A stretch of DNA of 47,384 nt, from NCBI GenBank assembly GCA_029224465.1, contig JAQXUQ010000011.1, positions 1 through 47,384 on the forward strand. The letters run 5' to 3'. The notes below the pieces were generated by a model. That model was given only the letters and a program-made list of their open reading frames with translations. It was not told the DNA's origin and ran no database searches. Position numbers and translations under genes: made by a program. Of the stretch, positions 2,205-42,383 are shown piece after piece. The stretch comes from Bacillota bacterium. GTDB taxonomy: Bacteria > Bacillota > Clostridia > Lachnospirales > Lachnospiraceae. Positions within the stretch are counted from its first letter, which is position 1. Each line of letters begins with the position of its first letter.

Positions 2205-3262
2205 GCGTTATGCCTTTCGCTGTCTATCTCAAACTCGCGGATCAGAACATCGGCGAGCCTGTCTGCTCCGCGTCCGTCCACGACCTCTTTCATGCGTGCG
2301 GCTACTTCCGACCGGAGTTCCGCGTCCTTGTAGCCTTGCAGTTTCTTCGTAATTCTGTCAATCACCCCGTCCATGTCCTCCCGGACATCGCCCGCGTACG
2401 GAATGATACCTCTCGCCTCAAACGCCTTCGCGGCGCGCATCTGATTGTCGGCGAGCGTGAGCATGACCGCGGGAAGCCCGCCCGTGCAGAGCTCATACAC
2501 TGTCGTCCCGCCGGCAGTAACGGCCATATCACATTCGCTGATCAGATCCGCAAGTGTATTCTGCGGATCAATCAGGTGAATTCCCGGCGTATTGCCGAAC
2601 CGTGATAAAAGCTCTTCCCTGTTGTGATTGTACCGGCCGATAATCAGAAGGAAATCCATGTCCCGGTTCATATGAAGCGCGGTAACCTTTTCGATCAGAT
2701 GCCCAAGAATGTTTCTTTCATCGGTCGCGCCGGTCGTAACCAGTACCCGCAGGCCTTCATGGGGAACAGGTTTGATGCTCCGGTATTCCTCGCACAGCGG
2801 CATGTAGGACAGCCCGAGCGCGAATCGCGTGGAAAGGCCGGCTTCACGGTAACGTTTTTCATAGTCCAGCTCCTCTGCGTAAATATTGTAGTTGATCAGA
2901 AGGTCGCAGGGGTAAATGAACTTATTTATATCGTCCAGGTATGCGACATGCGCGACTTCCCGGATTTTCTGAAGGTAGGTTTCCGTCACATAATAAGAGT
3001 CGATCAGCAGCCGGTCCGCGCAGCGCTCCCGCATGATCTGCAGAAGCTTATCCGATTCCACATCGAGAAGATCATAGTCGGAATTCAGGCACACATATCC
3101 GAACCCCGCTTCCGCGACCATCGCGGCGCTCTTCTTGTCCGCAACAAAGAAGGTCAGTTCGACGCCGCGCCTTCTCATTGCCTTCGCGATGGACAGACAG
3201 CGCATCATGTGTCCGATGCCGATATTGTCGTTTGCGTCAACTCTGATATAAAACTTCGTCAT
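2201..3262 (-). CDS. pseG: PseG-like UDP-sugar hydrolase (nonulosonic acid pathway)
   Basis: A 353-residue GT-B-fold protein. PseG removes UDP from UDP-2,4-diacetamido-2,4,6-trideoxy-L-altrose in pseudaminic acid synthesis. The N-terminal RVDANDNIGIGHMMRCLSIA contains the glycine-rich loop with the GHxxRCL pattern typical of PseG (catalytic-type His near residue 18). The C-terminal AVTAGGTTVYELCTGGLPAV matches the nucleotide-binding region of the MurG-like fold. It overlaps pseF upstream and prfC downstream by four bases each. No pseB, pseC, pseH or pseI is visible here, so the rest of the pathway must lie elsewhere. The exact stereochemistry of the sugar (pseudaminic or a related acid) is inferred. 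Confidence 0.82.
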   Translation of the reverse strand: MTKFYIRVDANDNIGIGHMMRCLSIAKAMRRRGVELTFFVADKKSAAMVAEAGFGYVCLNSDYDLLDVESDKLLQIMRERCADRLLIDSYYVTETYLQKIREVAHVAYLDDINKFIYPCDLLINYNIYAEELDYEKRYREAGLSTRFALGLSYMPLCEEYRSIKPVPHEGLRVLVTTGATDERNILGHLIEKVTALHMNRDMDFLLIIGRYNHNREELLSRFGNTPGIHLIDPQNTLADLISECDMAVTAGGTTVYELCTGGLPAVMLTLADNQMRAAKAFEARGIIPYAGDVREDMDGVIDRITKKLQGYKDAELRSEVAARMKEVVDGRGADRLADVLIREFEIDSERHNA

Positions 3263-3975
3263 TCCAAACTCTCTTCTTTCTTGTGTCTGTTTCCGTATAA
3301 AATTCTGTATTTCATCTGCGCCAGTTCGAAGTCCTCCGGATTATCGATATCCTGCACCTTTGTTTCCGGCAGGATCAGAGGAATGCAGGCTGCCGGCACA
3401 ACGGTCCTCTCTGCAAGGAAAGCTTTTGTTCTTATAAGATAGAACTGTCCCGCGTCATGATAGAACGGCTCCAGATCCTGGGAGCGCGCGTTCCTGTACT
3501 CCGGCCACCGGTAAGAGAGACTGCCGTCCCGTACGACAAAACAGCGCTGCGGCGGAAACGAAAACCGCACCACCGGTACCAGCGCGTCCGCAGATGATGA
3601 AGACAGCTTCGCGCAGGCTTCGCGAAGCGTTTCTCCTGTAACAAACGGCGCCGTCGGATACAGGCAGCAGGTCAGGTCAAAGGTTCTCCCCTCCTGCTCG
3701 TACCGGCCGAGGACCTCCAGAAGAACATCCGCCGTTGTCGCGTGATCATCCGAGGTTTCACCGCTTCTAAGAAACGGCACCTTCGCGCCGAATGAGCGCG
3801 CGATATCCGCGATTTCCTCTGCATCCGTCGACACCATCACTTCGTCAAAACAGCCGCTTTCAATTGCCGCGGCAATCGAATAGGCAATGATCGGCTTCCC
3901 CAAGAAATCTCTGATGTTTTTCCGGGGAATCCGTTTACTGCCGCCTCTTGCTGTAATAATCGCTATCGCTGACAT
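3259..3975 (-). CDS. pseF: PseF/NeuA-type CMP-nonulosonic acid cytidylyltransferase
   Basis: A 238-residue member of the acylneuraminate cytidylyltransferase family, which activates a nine-carbon acid sugar with CTP. The signature IITARGGSKRIPRKNIRDFL (residues 6-25) is the CTP-binding loop, and VMVSTDAEEIADIA follows. The C-terminal PLILPETKVQDIDNPEDF is closer to PseF than to NeuA. It is first in the pseF-pseG-prfC cluster, with a GGGAG ribosome binding site before ATG at 3975. The product presumably feeds glycosylation of flagellin or surface glycans, but no acceptor gene is visible in the window. Confidence 0.85.
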   Translation of the reverse strand: MSAIAIITARGGSKRIPRKNIRDFLGKPIIAYSIAAAIESGCFDEVMVSTDAEEIADIARSFGAKVPFLRSGETSDDHATTADVLLEVLGRYEQEGRTFDLTCCLYPTAPFVTGETLREACAKLSSSSADALVPVVRFSFPPQRCFVVRDGSLSYRWPEYRNARSQDLEPFYHDAGQFYLIRTKAFLAERTVVPAACIPLILPETKVQDIDNPEDFELAQMKYRILYGNRHKKEESLE

Positions 3976-16953: not shown

Positions 16954-17025
16954 GGCTCGTTGGTCAAGAGGCTAAGACGCTGCCCTCTCACGGCAGAATC
17001 ATGGGTTCGATTCCCGTACGAGCTA
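16954..17025 (+). tRNA. tRNA-Glu (anticodon CUC)
   Basis: A 72-base cloverleaf. The acceptor stem GGCTCGT/ACGAGCT pairs with one terminal G-U. The anticodon stem CTGCC/GGCAG holds the loop CTCTCAC with anticodon CTC. The T arm ATGGG TTCGATT CCCGT is standard and the discriminator is A. No CCA is encoded. It is the only plus-strand housekeeping gene here. Phage genes begin about 90 bases past its 3' end, so it is the likely attB, with the tRNA 3' end restored by the phage. Confidence 0.95.
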
Positions 17026-17093
17026 CTGTACAGTGCATATCCGAACCTATTGATTTACAAGAATTATTGTTTCGGAATTGTTATCAAGACAGG

Positions 17094-17123
17094 GAGCAGG
17101 TGAAAAACCTGCTCTTTTATTTT
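17094..17123 (+). terminator. Terminator downstream of tRNA-Glu
   Basis: A perfect 8-bp stem GAGCAGGT/ACCTGCTC (17094-17101 with 17107-17114) with loop GAAAA and the tail TTTTATTTT. It reads as a terminator for the plus-strand tRNA transcript. The endolysin stop codon lies in the tail, and in the minus direction no T run follows. Confidence 0.8.
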
Positions 17124-17746
17124 AACAGCCGATTTACTTCCGACTGGATATTCAGATAATTATATCCTGCCGCAATCAGGCGCTTCTTACGCTCGGCTCC
17201 GTTTCCCCATTTACCTGCAATTACTTCTTTGGCAATCTCGGTATAAGAACCACCGGATTGGCTGTATTTCGGAACACCGTACCCTCGAATAAATCTTCCG
17301 TTCACCTTAATGTGTCTGCGTTTCACGGAATCGGAATAATTTCCTTCAATCACGGTAATTGTAGTACCGGATACCTTTTCGACAATTCCAACATGGTCTG
17401 CGACTCCAACGTCATTACCTACACCGGAATCCTGCCAGTCATAGAAAATAACGTCTCCCGGAGACGGTACATACGCATCGTTTTCTACCCACGAGCCGAT
17501 CTTCTTGAACAAATTGATCATCTGTTCACAACCGCACTCTGTCGGAATGATTGCTGTATATCCACAGACAATAGACACTGCCGATACAAACGTGGCACAC
17601 CAAGAGTCAGTATATTTTACAATATAATTTCTCGCAAGCGGTCTGTGCTGATTATAAATGTCAATAATCGCTCGATGAGAACCGTCTGCTTCTTTTCTTC
17701 CAAGCCACTTCTGAGCCTGTTTTACAACTACATCTCTCGAATACAT
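17117..17746 (-). CDS. Phage endolysin: CHAP amidase/endopeptidase with Cpl-7 wall-binding domain
   Basis: A 209-residue lysin that cleaves host peptidoglycan at lysis. The CHAP domain (about 1-150) has the nucleophile in SWCATFVSAV (Cys near residue 49), the His in ADHVGIVEK and the acidic partner in VIEGNYSDSVKRR. The C-terminal IAKEVIAGKWGNGAERKKRL (about 168-187) followed by AAGYNYLNIQSEVNRLL is a single CW_7/Cpl-7 wall-binding repeat. There is no signal peptide, so it depends on the holin upstream. Confidence 0.92.
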   Translation of the reverse strand: MYSRDVVVKQAQKWLGRKEADGSHRAIIDIYNQHRPLARNYIVKYTDSWCATFVSAVSIVCGYTAIIPTECGCEQMINLFKKIGSWVENDAYVPSPGDVIFYDWQDSGVGNDVGVADHVGIVEKVSGTTITVIEGNYSDSVKRRHIKVNGRFIRGYGVPKYSQSGGSYTEIAKEVIAGKWGNGAERKKRLIAAGYNYLNIQSEVNRLLK

Positions 17747-17786: not shown

Positions 17787-18044
17787 TCACCTCTCTTTCG
17801 GCTTACTATAGGTCATTGCCTGTGTGCTGTCTGATAATCCTGCTGTAGTAGGGTCAGTAACTACACCCAAGATGGACAATACCGCAAATGCCGCATTGAT
17901 TATTGCAGTCAATTCCTGTCCGAGTACACCGAAATCCCACTTATATCCAAACGGTACAAGCACCGTCTGAATCAGTAAAAGCACAGCAGGAATCAGCGCA
18001 AGCCAAAAATTCTTATTCTTAATTCTCACTTTCCAGTTAATCAT
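17787..18044 (-). CDS. Phage holin, phi-LC3 type
   Basis: An 85-residue membrane protein. MINWKVRIKNKNFWLALIPA is the phi-LC3 holin signature. Two transmembrane segments (about 13-33 and 46-64) are visible, with a charged C-terminus (YSKPKER). It permits endolysin release. The start overlaps the stop of the upstream membrane protein by four bases and the endolysin follows, forming a lysis cassette. Confidence 0.9.
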   Translation of the reverse strand: MINWKVRIKNKNFWLALIPAVLLLIQTVLVPFGYKWDFGVLGQELTAIINAAFAVLSILGVVTDPTTAGLSDSTQAMTYSKPKER

Positions 18045-18418: not shown

Positions 18419-18444
18419 ATTCGCTAAACAACGGTTTAGCGAAT
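18419..18444 (+). repeat. Recombination-type 26-bp dyad site A (silent cassette end)
   Basis: A perfect palindrome apart from its four central bases: arms ATTCGCTAAAC and GTTTAGCGAAT around AACG. Half-site positions TAAAC...GGTTT align in register with the Hin/Gin/Cin crossover sites as I recall them. It matches site B at 20 of 26 bases, with an 11-base identical core, in inverted orientation. Confidence 0.6.
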
Positions 18445-18688
18445 GGTCGCAACGATTCACCGATACATATTCGATATGTAAGGTCTTGGCAAGCAGGATC
18501 AAGCGCCGGTGAAATCGATATCAGAATTATTGTTACCAAAAACGGCAGACAAGTTTATGATACGGGCAATTTTAGACCTTATAATACGGCTTCCAAGGAA
18601 TTTGACTGCTAATTATACCGTTAAAGTGAAATATGCTACTCCGCCGAGGCTCCATGACGGCGTGGGATATCTCACATTGACAGTGTAA
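18419..18688 (+). pseudogene. Silent, inverted alternative C-terminus of the tail-fibre gene (frameshifted)
   Basis: The plus strand carries a start-less coding stretch opposite to all neighbours. From site A it reads SLNNGLANGRNDSPIHIRYV and continues IRIIVTKNGRQVYDTGNF to TAA at 18610. One base out of frame the sequence continues TANYTVKVKYATPPRLHDGV to TAA at 18686, so a one-base insertion in the TTT at 18601-18603 probably broke it. Its first residues align with NNGFANGYNN of the fibre gene, in the same codon register across the core. The two stops face each other nine bases apart. This fits a silent C-terminal cassette. Confidence 0.65.
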
Positions 18689-18697
18689 TGAGTTTGC

Positions 18698-19303
18698 TTA
18701 ATATGAAACAATGCCAATCGAACACTGATTATCATTTACGTTATTTGCCCTAACCGTAAATGTTCCCTGATTAATTCCACTCACCTTGTATATTTTCATT
18801 GCGTATAAAGGTGTTCCAAAATTACGTTTTCCATCATATAGCTTTACATATGCCCCCGATGAAATGGTTATGTCCGATGGCGAACTAACAGAACTCCAAA
18901 AATATACAAAAACGAGTGCTCGTCCGCTTGTAATTTGAGTGCTAATAGACGTTATCCCCATGTTACCCGCAGATATTTGAGGGTTTACATTGTTATAACC
19001 GTTCGCAAAACCGTTGTTATACGCATCGTTCCACATTTGAGACTTCTTAGCGTCATCGACAGCTATACGAATTTCCGGCGCCCAACTCTGACCGTCTGAA
19101 CGATAACAACCTTCGGGAATTCCGTTTACAGCATAGTATCCGTTTCCGCTTCCCATGCTTTTCGTGTACTGATACTGTCCTCTGTCTGGCATCGTACCCG
19201 CGATATTCACACCTTTATCAGAAGAGAACGTCTTCCCCGCCAAGACGTTCTCTGCTGTTGCACTCCCGACCGCACCTCTGCGGCCGCACATTACGCTACC
19301 CAT
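18698..19303 (-). CDS. Phage tail fibre-like protein with switchable C-terminus
   Basis: A 201-residue protein. The N-terminal half (ATAENVLAGKTFSSDKGVNI and GTMPDRGQY, then NGYYAVNGIPEGCYRSDGQS) is the kind of repeat found in tail-fibre proteins of Lachnospiraceae prophages. The C-terminal half after residue about 96 (NNGFANGYNN) is beta-rich and probably receptor binding. Site B at 19001-19026 lies exactly at that junction, so inversion would replace the last 100 or so residues. ATG at 19303 has GAGGAG upstream. The role is inferred from position after the baseplate genes and from composition. Confidence 0.75.
   Translation of the reverse strand: MGSVMCGRRGAVGSATAENVLAGKTFSSDKGVNIAGTMPDRGQYQYTKSMGSGNGYYAVNGIPEGCYRSDGQSWAPEIRIAVDDAKKSQMWNDAYNNGFANGYNNVNPQISAGNMGITSISTQITSGRALVFVYFWSSVSSPSDITISSGAYVKLYDGKRNFGTPLYAMKIYKVSGINQGTFTVRANNVNDNQCSIGIVSY
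19001..19026 (-). repeat. Recombination-type 26-bp dyad site B (inside fibre gene)
   Basis: Read on the minus strand: ATGCGTATAAC, AACG, GTTTTGCGAAC. It shares the core AACAACGGTTT and GCGAA with site A, and both have the same central AC dinucleotide when read in the coding sense. In the fibre gene it encodes AYNNGFAN. Confidence 0.55.
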
Positions 19304-34254: not shown

Positions 34255-35886
34255 TCACCAAGGACGCTGAAAAATTTCGATTACATTAGCAGAAAGTGAC
34301 TGTGCATATTCGGCGAGCTGTGCCATAGCATCGGGTACGTCATCATGTTTATTCTTACCTGCCATCGTATACGAGCAGAGCATGTCCATAAACCGTCCGT
34401 AATCGGAATTGCGCCGATAGGTTGAAGAATCCTTGAATAAGCAATGTTCTTTCACCCACGCACTGTTGACAATAATCTTGGTTTCCTTGTTCGCTGTCGT
34501 ATACTTTGTCGTGATATGCGTGATTCCGCCCTGTTCCTTTACTTTTTCCTGTACCTTCTCGGCAACTCTTCGCCCTGCGGAGTTACTTTCAAACCTTGCC
34601 GACTGCACCTTATCCCGGACAAGACATTCCACGAGCCTTGCATCTACAACGTCAGGAAGTCCGTTATCGCACACACAGTCATCCAAGTAATAATCTTGTC
34701 CGTACACATATGCCACCGGCAGAACACAATAATCCTTACCTCTGTCCTTGGTATCGCAGACCGCTATAATTGCGTCCGGTGCTTCACTCGGAAGCTCAAA
34801 ATACCTGCGCAGTTCGTCTTCTGTGTACACAACACCTTCCCGCTCAATCGGCTCGTTCATGTACAGCGCTCTCCATGAGGCATCGTCCATGATATCCCTC
34901 TGTTCTCGGTAAAACTTGGTCGAAAAACCTACGCCATACTGATAATCGAAATTCGATTCATCATTCTCGTCCAGTGCCGGTATAACAATGAATTCTGCCC
35001 TGTCAGAATTCCCATATTCCTGCTCTAAATGCCCGATAACATCGTGAATAGACCATCGTGTTGCAATGTGCAGTTCCTTGCAATGGTCACCGATTTTTCG
35101 TTGTCTTAAGTCTGTCGTGTACGTTCCCCAAAGCTTGTCTAATCTTTCTTTCGAGAGCGCTTCCTCTAAGCCCGATACAAGGTCATCGCAGTATAACAGC
35201 CTTGCCGCACGATACAGACCTGCATTTCCTGTACCCACAGACGTAAATTCCAATGTTTCAAATCTCTGTCTCTTGTCAATGTCTATCCTGTAATCCTTGG
35301 CGTTTGTTCCTGTTACCTGCAACTGCGGAAATACATCGTGCCACAGATAATCTCCGTTCGGGTCAAAGATTCTAAGACACTCATCGTAAGCGCCTTTTAC
35401 AAATGCATTGCTGTGGGAACCGGTAAGCATCGGCTCATTCGGGTACTTTCCTGCAAGCCAAGTAAGGTAAAAGATTGCAAGTGTCGTTTTTCCACTTCCC
35501 GGTGGCATGGAAATTGCAAGCAGGTCAATCTTGTCATCTGCAAGCCTTTGCAGAGCCGCGACAACCTTGCTTAACACATTCCTTCTCGGCGGATAGAATT
35601 TCTTGTCCGGTTCCCTGTCCCATTCCACGTACAGCAGGTAACTTTCAAAATCATCTACCGCTGCTTTTAAGAGAACCTTCTTGTGCAGTTCAAACAGCTC
35701 TGTAAGCAGTTCCGTGTCTTCTGTCGTTCTGATCTTCTTTTCAATCGCTTCTGACAGACGTTTTAAATACTTTACTTTCAGCGCATGGTCTGTCTCAAAT
35801 TCATCCCTGCACAGATCATATAAATCTTGATAAGCTTGGATATCATCTCCAAGACTCTCGTAAATTACCTGTAAAATCTCCCGCAT
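34255..35886 (-). CDS. Phage terminase large subunit
   Basis: A 543-residue packaging motor from ATG 35886 (MREILQVIYESLGDDIQAYQ), with GAGGGAGAG upstream; an upstream in-frame start at 35970 would read through the resolvase terminator and is rejected. The ATPase domain has Walker A MPPGSGKTT (about residue 127) and Walker B ARLLYCDD. The nuclease domain has AVCDTKDRGKD and HDDVPDAMAQLAEY as metal ligands. It is full length. It is separated from its small subunit by about 5.7 kb of island and recombinase. Confidence 0.95.
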   Translation of the reverse strand: MREILQVIYESLGDDIQAYQDLYDLCRDEFETDHALKVKYLKRLSEAIEKKIRTTEDTELLTELFELHKKVLLKAAVDDFESYLLYVEWDREPDKKFYPPRRNVLSKVVAALQRLADDKIDLLAISMPPGSGKTTLAIFYLTWLAGKYPNEPMLTGSHSNAFVKGAYDECLRIFDPNGDYLWHDVFPQLQVTGTNAKDYRIDIDKRQRFETLEFTSVGTGNAGLYRAARLLYCDDLVSGLEEALSKERLDKLWGTYTTDLRQRKIGDHCKELHIATRWSIHDVIGHLEQEYGNSDRAEFIVIPALDENDESNFDYQYGVGFSTKFYREQRDIMDDASWRALYMNEPIEREGVVYTEDELRRYFELPSEAPDAIIAVCDTKDRGKDYCVLPVAYVYGQDYYLDDCVCDNGLPDVVDARLVECLVRDKVQSARFESNSAGRRVAEKVQEKVKEQGGITHITTKYTTANKETKIIVNSAWVKEHCLFKDSSTYRRNSDYGRFMDMLCSYTMAGKNKHDDVPDAMAQLAEYAQSLSANVIEIFQRPW

Positions 35887-35900
35887 ATTTCTCTCCCTCA

Positions 35901-35938
35901 AAATAAAAAAAAGAGCGCCGCCGTAACCGGCAACGCTC
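35901..35938 (-). terminator. Strong terminator after the serine recombinase
   Basis: An 11-bp stem (35928-35938 with 35913-35923) pairing fully if two G-U pairs are allowed, loop of four, then TTTTTTTTATTTT on the minus strand. It begins eight bases after the recombinase stop and ends just before the large terminase ribosome binding site. Confidence 0.88.
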
Positions 35939-35945
35939 CAACACG

Positions 35946-36515
35946 TTATTTCCTCGTGTAATTGTACCAAGATGTTCTTGAAATCCCAAGCCTCTTACAG
36001 CACTGCTCAATCGTCAGTTCTCCGCCTTTTTGTTTTTCCCGGAATTTTTCAAGAACCTCGTAATCTATGGAAAGCCTAGGTCTTCCCTCATGATAATCTT
36101 TCTTCTGTCTCGCAATCTCTTTTCCTTCCTGCGTCCTCTGTACAATCATATCACGTTCAAACTCGGCAAACGCAAACATAACATTCATGATGAGCTTCCC
36201 TGTCGGCGTATTGTCCATCATACCCATATTGAGTACGTGAACACGGACGCCTCTCGCAATCATCTCCTGTACAAATGAACTTCCTTGGTTTGCGCTCCTT
36301 GCGATTCTGTCCAGTTTGGTCACAACCAGTGTATCACCGGAACGCATAAGCGATTTCAGCTTGTCAAACTGTGGTCTGTCCAGTTTGGTTCCGGTAAAGG
36401 AATCTACAAAAATCTTCTCTGCCCCTGCTGCTTTTAATTTCTCTTTCTGGTCAGACAAAGAGTTGCCGTCTCTTGCCTGTCCTTTCGTTGACACTCTCGC
36501 GTATCCATAGATCAT
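35946..36515 (-). CDS. Serine recombinase (resolvase/invertase family)
   Basis: A 189-residue small serine recombinase. The catalytic Ser is in YARVST (residue 9), arginines in [10 protein letters not shown], and [20 protein letters not shown] is the long dimerisation helix. EGRPRLS leads to a C-terminal helix-turn-helix ([20 protein letters not shown]). The GRPR linker and length resemble Hin/Gin/Pin invertases and Tn3-type resolvases; these cannot be separated by eye. It lacks the long C-terminal domain of serine integrases. It has a 108-bp palindromic element just upstream and its own terminator. It is the best candidate to act on the fibre-gene sites at 18419 and 19001. Confidence 0.9.
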
Positions 36516-36526
36516 ATTTGCCCCCT

Positions 36527-36634
36527 CTGAACAAAAGATACAGTTTTTCTAGTTTTTTACCGTAACTTTCTCTATAGAGAGGCTATATAGAAAAAGTTAT
36601 GTAAAATATCTTAAAAACTGTACCTTTTGTTCAG
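36527..36634 (-). repeat. 108-bp palindromic element, copy 1 (upstream of recombinase)
   Basis: Bounded by inverted 22-base ends beginning CTGAACAAAAG and ending CTTTTGTTCAG. Nested arms (TTTTAC/GTAAAA, ACTTT.TCTATA/TATAGA.AAAGT) make nearly the whole unit a hairpin. Copy 2 at 42276-42383 has the same length. Its core (GCCTC, ACGGTAAA) is in opposite orientation, while the outside flanks are in the same orientation. The stop codon of the upstream gene lies in the element. Confidence 0.8.
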
Positions 36635-42275: not shown

Positions 42276-42383
42276 CTGAACAAAAGATACAGTTTTTACA
42301 CTTTTTGTGTATAACTTTTTATATATAGCCTCTACTAAGAAAAGTTTACGGTAAATATATGTAAAACTGTATCTTTTGTTCAG
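42276..42383 (-). repeat. 108-bp palindromic element, copy 2 (upstream of TerS)
   Basis: Same length and same terminal inverted repeats (CTGAACAAAAGATACAG...CTTTTGTTCAG) as copy 1. Its core aligns to the reverse complement of copy 1. It lies between the HTH gene stop and the TerS ribosome binding site. Confidence 0.8.

Follow-up and report, generated by a model that had tools for sequence, protein, structure and literature searches.

A candidate tail-fibre tip switch between inverted dif-like sites in a prophage, and its possible operation by the host Xer recombinase

The window analyzed here, a stretch of 47,384 bases, is the whole of contig G000:C11 and has a prophage inside it. A tRNA-Glu gene (16954-17026) adjoins the apparent left edge of the prophage (att unmapped), and the contig stops at 47384, before the right end is reached. 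From left to right, the minus-strand genes are an endolysin, a holin, a 116-aa protein, the fibre gene, tail-module genes, the portal, the terminase and a small serine recombinase (Table 1). Within the tail module, a gene at 20024-20506 matches over its first 68 residues in 14 of 16 related contigs and has no match there for the remainder (the 15th contig is cut by its end, the 16th ends before the gene), a pattern resembling that of a module-exchange receptor-binding protein.

Table 1. Features of the candidate switch locus and of the surrounding prophage in the window.
Feature	Position	Strand	Basis or remark
Endolysin (CHAP + CW_7)	17117..17746	-	Domain matches
Holin, lysis module adjoining cassette	17787..18044	-	PF04531, 2.1e-29
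Candidate inversion site 1 (dif-like), start of silent plus-strand cassette	18419..18444	+	Perfect 11+4+11 dyad; central hexamer CAACGG
Silent cassette; frame leaving site 1 closes with TAA at 18611-18613	18432..18613	+	Reading-frame analysis; no homologue found
Tail-to-tail junction, 41 bp	18594..18634	.	Common to L100 2269-2309, 93% identity
Second plus-strand frame, ending LHDGVGYLTLTV-stop	18602..18688	+	End of frame-broken or composite cassette
Tail-fibre / receptor-binding gene, present expressed form, 201 aa	18698..19303	-	66% identity over about 89 aa to the terminal domain of the L100 protein
Expressed variable C-terminal cassette, 100 aa	18698..19000	-	No homologue in phage collection
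Candidate inversion site 2 (dif-like), within fibre gene (DAYNNGFANG)	19001..19026	-	Central hexamer CAACGG; left arm degenerate
Constant part of fibre gene	19001..19303	-	Likeness to L100 stops at the site
Terminase large subunit	34255..35970	-	TIGR01630, 56.3 bits against a cut-off of 41.65
Small serine recombinase (189 aa), immediately upstream of terminase large subunit	35946..36515	-	Pfam Resolvase, 1.1e-37

The two 26-bp sites lie in inverted orientation and match at 20 of 26 positions, sharing an 11-base run and an identical central AC, as the first-pass annotation of this DNA had described; shifting the register by up to 10 bases either way leaves at most nine matches. Its further observation that both sites are read in the same codon register also holds, since both encode NNG[F/L]AN and site 2 is in frame within the fibre gene. 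The arms match those of dif in the lineage of the host, with one arm of site 2 degenerate, and the central hexamer is identical in the two partners. On a site-pair score (identity plus mean dyad) that was chosen after the pair had been seen, the window reaches 29.0 against a maximum of 27.5 in 100 dinucleotide shuffles of 17001-47384. Real DNA can exceed this value, as one of the 17 related phage loci scanned contains a pair at 29.5 (L024).

The coding stretches that begin at the two sites converge, and the TAA at 18686-18688 lies nine bases from the fibre stop, as had been reported from the sequence alone; the plus-strand stretch is, however, not one open frame, as the frame leaving site 1 stops at 18611-18613 and the TAA at 18686-18688 closes a different one. 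This leaves the silent cassette with a broken or composite frame, and the earlier expectation that inversion would swap about 100 C-terminal residues does not hold, the first stop after inversion falling about 58 residues past the joining point. Searches with the N-terminal part of the fibre, its C-terminal part and the plus-strand piece returned only the window or nothing in two viral collections (viral_contigs and phages), in 61 genomes of relatives, 62 of the genus and 397 of the family; a search of genome_contigs gave one Psychrobacter match (45% over 47 residues). The alternative orientation of the window cassette, which the first-pass annotation had suggested looking for, was found in none of the relatives. 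Structure prediction for the fibre was poor (mean pLDDT 36.3).

A scan of IMG/VR for the core common to both sites (AACAACGGTTTNGCGAA) recovered 14 contigs. The best inverted partner is weaker in 13 of them, at 14 to 19 of 26 (19 in L101). The remaining contig, L100 (6,132 bases), represents an independent phage that repeats the window arrangement with other cassettes. Its minus-strand gene (2288-3484, 398 aa) ends in the domain related to the window fibre, and the similarity between the two phages stops at the site. Inverted sites are located at 2018-2043 and 2447-2472, with a one-base difference in the central hexamer (CAACGG vs CAATGG), and a convergent plus-strand cassette (2014-2253) begins at the first. 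The cassettes of the two phages show no similarity beyond the junction and a C-terminal motif, in which the second plus-strand frame of the window resembles the closing residues of the cassette that L100 expresses (VHDGIYFTLTV; E = 0.002 when five sequences were compared). The plus-strand cassette of L100 matched L100 alone, and its switch region had no match in phage DNA. A longer contig, L106 (28,964 bases), is 89.6% identical to L100 across 3,677 bases and stops three bases past its own site, where the cassettes should diverge; the break in this one contig fits the behaviour of an assembler at coexisting alternative cassettes, and suggests that such cassettes coexist. G560, which has a remoter relative of the constant domain, shows no inverted 26-mer pair in the 3.2 kb examined.

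The N-terminal half of the L100 protein is similar to proteins of Lactococcus phages (r1t, phiLC3, 50101 and others) and to unnamed Butyrivibrio phage proteins. The Lactococcus homologues are named baseplate, receptor-binding, structural or head protein, the name head appearing in other copies of the same records, and PHROGs places the L100 protein among head or virion structural proteins. The upstream neighbour of the gene is Sipho_Gp37, a tail protein, and from homology and position we take the L100 product to be a receptor-binding protein. Three annotated phage relatives of this protein contain no dif-like site scoring at least 15. An invertible fibre-tip cassette of a tail receptor-binding protein is, on comparative sequence evidence, a well-supported reading of the window locus.

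The sites themselves belong to a class that is widespread in the family of the host. When no more than one mismatch is allowed, a dyad of the form TTCGCNAAACNNNNGTTTNGCGAA is found in 68 of the 397 genomes of the family, and the reversed pattern in one of the 397 (G466). Most of these genomes have a single copy; G413, G578 and G595 have two, and the second sites in G595 and G413, which lie inside genes read as pheS from their translations, were taken as chance. A half-match in G729, with neither a good partner nor phage context, was also set aside. Among the 30 dyad loci listed, which include the window itself, an XerC/D-like (XerS-like) tyrosine recombinase is present in 19 and starts at most 160 bp from the site in 14; eight more dyad stretches, picked for second or exact sites, have Xer in six cases and lie inside a gene read as pheS in the other two. 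In three chromosomes picked for a site deep within a long contig, GC skew in 20-kb blocks is positive in nine of nine blocks before the dyad and negative in nine of nine after it, with two slightly negative blocks before the dyad at the 5-kb scale; the dyad is found at 51% of the contig in two of these chromosomes and at 79% in the third. Collectively, the genome count, the neighbouring Xer genes and the switch in skew indicate that this dyad class is the dif of the family. The dyad folds well and was also considered as a mere RNA hairpin or terminator, yet two inner arm positions are often unpaired, and this reading was rejected. The blocks TTCG, AAAC, GTTT and CGAA are invariant in all 16 dif-class sites, and invariant blocks with unpaired inner arms may suit a protein site better than a hairpin, although the argument is weak because the four blocks were largely fixed by the search pattern.

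With a dif weight matrix built from 16 Xer-adjacent sites, none of them from the window, site 1 is the best-scoring position of the window (35.4) and site 2 the second (21.2), followed by a next value of 9.4, while background maxima were 13.5 over 346,418 positions and 18.2 over 705,905 positions. The score of site 1 is inflated, as the training sites were obtained with a pattern derived from site 1 of the window and site 1 of L100, and the 68-to-1 control with the reversed pattern is the fairer test. Pattern hits from large collections that we regard as chance score between 22.7 and 27.3 (L099, L157, L155), above both site 2 and the host site described below (24.3), so the assignment of these two sites rests on their position as well as on their score.

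A profile search of the G000 contigs gave three matches to the tyrosine recombinase family PF00589, all off the prophage contig C11, where none was found. One of them, at G000:C6:360186-361271, is a 362-aa Xer that aligned with two others at 59 and 63% identity and whose best NCBIfam model is XerS, below the cut-off (193.6 vs 267 bits). A host dif-like site, ATTCGCAAAAGGCAGCTTTTACGAAT, is located 2.0 kb upstream of this gene (C6:358166-358191), and thus on a contig other than that of the prophage. Its arms are similar to those of the fibre sites, but its central hexamer is GGCAGC rather than CAACGG. The skew changes weakly at this position (0.042 to -0.024), and the site (L161:15506) folds into a long hairpin with a T run behind it; it could be a terminator, or double as one.

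We favour, with moderate confidence, a two-state switch of the receptor-binding protein in which the cassette would be inverted by the XerS-like Xer of the host at the dif-like sites. The fibre gene at present reads via site 2 into one C-terminal cassette, with the second cassette silent behind site 1 in the opposite direction. Because the sites are inverted, share the hexamer CAACGG and have the same register, a crossover would flip the 582 bp from one centre to the other, with an in-frame join as the result. The constant part ending in DAYNNG would then be joined to the other cassette, exchanging a tip of about 100 residues for one of about 58 to the first stop; as the silent cassette is frame-broken or composite, inversion may leave the protein with a shorter tip. 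Since the sites are of the dif class of the host family, the enzyme is most likely the host XerS-like tyrosine recombinase acting in trans. Tyrosine recombination requires matching central regions, and the differing hexamers suggest that the phage sites would recombine between themselves and not with the host dif. Host recognition would change with the tip if the gene encodes a receptor-binding protein, as its family suggests.

Several observations count against this reading: no inverted copy of the window cassette was found in relatives, the L100 hexamers differ, one arm of site 2 is degenerate and the silent frame is broken. Moreover, streptococcal XerS/difSL recombination requires FtsK, according to the available part of one account (PMC5357621), and such a need would restrict Xer activity away from the terminus. 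The broken or composite plus-strand frame, the degenerate arm and the central mismatch of L100 would also be expected of a fossil, in which sites and cassettes are remnants past recombining and the silent cassette has decayed from an alternative tip. We consider this quite improbable, given that a perfect dyad has been kept at site 1, that the central hexamers of both window sites are identical and that the break in L106 suggests live heterogeneity in a relative.

A different enzyme might operate the same switch. The first-pass annotation had proposed a Mu/P1-like system of the Hin/Gin/Cin type; the cassette architecture it described is borne out by L100 and L106, but the type of enzyme is not, because no invertase gene adjoins the cassette and the single Resolvase-family match of the contig lies beside TerL, at a distance of 17 kb. 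This small serine recombinase could nevertheless flip the cassette in trans, Gin/Cin fashion. It is full-length, its matches are to invertases in both PHROGs (PHROG 125, DNA invertase, 3.1e-57) and the PDB (best match DNA-invertase 4m6f), and the fibre sites are 26 bp long with an identical central AC and an AAAC....GTTT core that we take to resemble hix/gix sites. We nonetheless regard its involvement as unlikely, in view of its distance from the cassette and its place beside the terminase, of outer site arms that match the dif class of the host, and of L100 and L106, both fragments, in which no small serine recombinase was seen.

The distribution of the recombinase gene points the same way. 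Among 16 tail-module relatives and G086, Resolvase-domain matches occur in 6 of these 17 viral records, with small Resolvase frames of 191 to 270 aa in three of the tail-module relatives. In these three (G781, G783 and G790) and in G086, the pieces examined contain no dif-like site (best score 12.3), and the scanned loci of the three have no pair as good as that of the window. G086, whose recombinase is 62% identical, has strong inverted pairs of other sequence elsewhere, not seen at a fibre gene: one (L024) matches at 23 of 26 just upstream of the recombinase gene and the other (L050) at 26 of 26 at the end of a gene read as a tyrosine integrase. Recombinase carriers that lack dif-like sites indicate that gene and sites are unlinked in the few cases available, the records of which may be incomplete. 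Relatives of the serine recombinase were found at 13 places in 12 of 392 genomes, and the stretches around seven of the 13 places contain no pair near that of the window outside AT-rich repeats. Several inverted repeats also occupy L024 2500-5100, just upstream of the serine recombinase of G086. The window prophage has a 108-bp near-palindromic element in two copies (36527-36634 and 42276-42383), without other genome matches at E 0.001. One of the copies comes immediately before the gene of the serine recombinase, and the element could be an operator, a recombination site of its own or a small mobile element.

Dif-like sites also occur singly on phage contigs. Strong single sites (score 32-35) are present at L111:10201-10226, L114:10052-10077, L110:10540-10565, L113:4199-4224 and L096:4016-4041 (the same site in L102), no more than about 0.8 kb from a terminase gene in L110, L111 and L096, and with the longer palindrome arms of the host type kept in L111 and L114. 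Phages with a single site may use the host Xer for integration or dimer resolution. The existence of such contigs, some with the site beside a terminase gene, allows the reading that site 1 of the window is likewise an IMEX-like Xer attachment or dimer-resolution site and that the likeness of site 2 is a coding accident. This is highly improbable, as the window and L100 both have another site that is inverted and in frame at the boundary of the cassette, and as the apparent prophage edge adjoins tRNA-Glu (att unmapped) with the host dif-like site on another contig.

The G segment of Mu and the C segment of P1 switch fibres by Gin and Cin inversion. Fibre switching by inversion in these phages has long been known (PMC6109161, PMC5903667, in the parts available). 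The window resembles Mu and P1 in its two alternative convergent C-terminal fibre cassettes, inverted sites and shared codon register, and differs from them in lacking an adjacent serine invertase, in the host dif class of its sites and in the siphovirus type of its receptor-binding protein. In the Rin shufflon of bifidobacterial prophages, as the accessible portion of its description has it, inverted cassettes swap a receptor-binding C-terminus of 95-100 residues (PMC6109161). Both systems thus have inverted cassettes for the C-terminus of a phage receptor-binding protein, but Rin is described there as having its own adjoining tyrosine invertase and 11-bp asymmetric sites, while the window has dif-like dyads and no PF00589 match on its contig. 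A second bifidophage inversion locus has an 8-bp site and no adjacent recombinase, and an invertase in trans has been proposed for it (PMC6109161, same portion); as in the window, no recombinase stands beside the cassette, and the available text makes no link to Xer/dif.

The use of host Xer by phages also has precedent, in that the IMEX phages CTXphi, VGJphi and TLCphi integrate at dif via the host XerCD (PMC5357621, from the sections available). Like them, the window phage bears dif-like sites for a host Xer recombinase; IMEX phages, as presented in those sections, integrate at dif, whereas the window has two inverted sites with another central hexamer, flanking part of a tail gene inside a prophage. 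The same sections describe XerS/difSL and XerH/difH as single-recombinase systems with one Xer gene and a neighbouring dif (PMC5357621). The host Xer is comparable to XerS/difSL in having one gene with a neighbouring dif-like site and XerS as its best, sub-threshold, model, but the window site is a symmetric dyad with about six central bases, where difSL is given 11 (PMC5357621, in part). In the literature searched, from which most subscription journals were outside coverage, we found no report of a tail switch on host-type dif sites or of a fibre switch operated by host Xer. The parts are thus known singly (fibre inversion, a tyrosine invertase at a receptor-binding locus, integration by host Xer), and their combination is new within the literature searched.

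If the proposed switch is real, a recombinase of host chromosome maintenance runs the host-recognition switch of a phage, and, with the host enzyme doing the flipping, the phage itself needs no enzyme, just a pair of 26-bp sites. A tail gene with two inverted dif-like dyads would then be a signature by which to recognize switches without an annotated invertase, and a testable question would be whether cell division and fibre switching are coupled. More broadly, phages of this family may have captured the single-Xer/dif chemistry of their hosts for tip switching, with a private hexamer that avoids the chromosomal dif and perhaps a tie to division through FtsK, a proposal on which our confidence is evenly divided. 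Related phages may diversify their tips by another route, as suggested by Butyrivibrio phage Arawn (L146:7934-9079), whose annotation places a putative reverse transcriptase downstream of a relative of the L100 protein.
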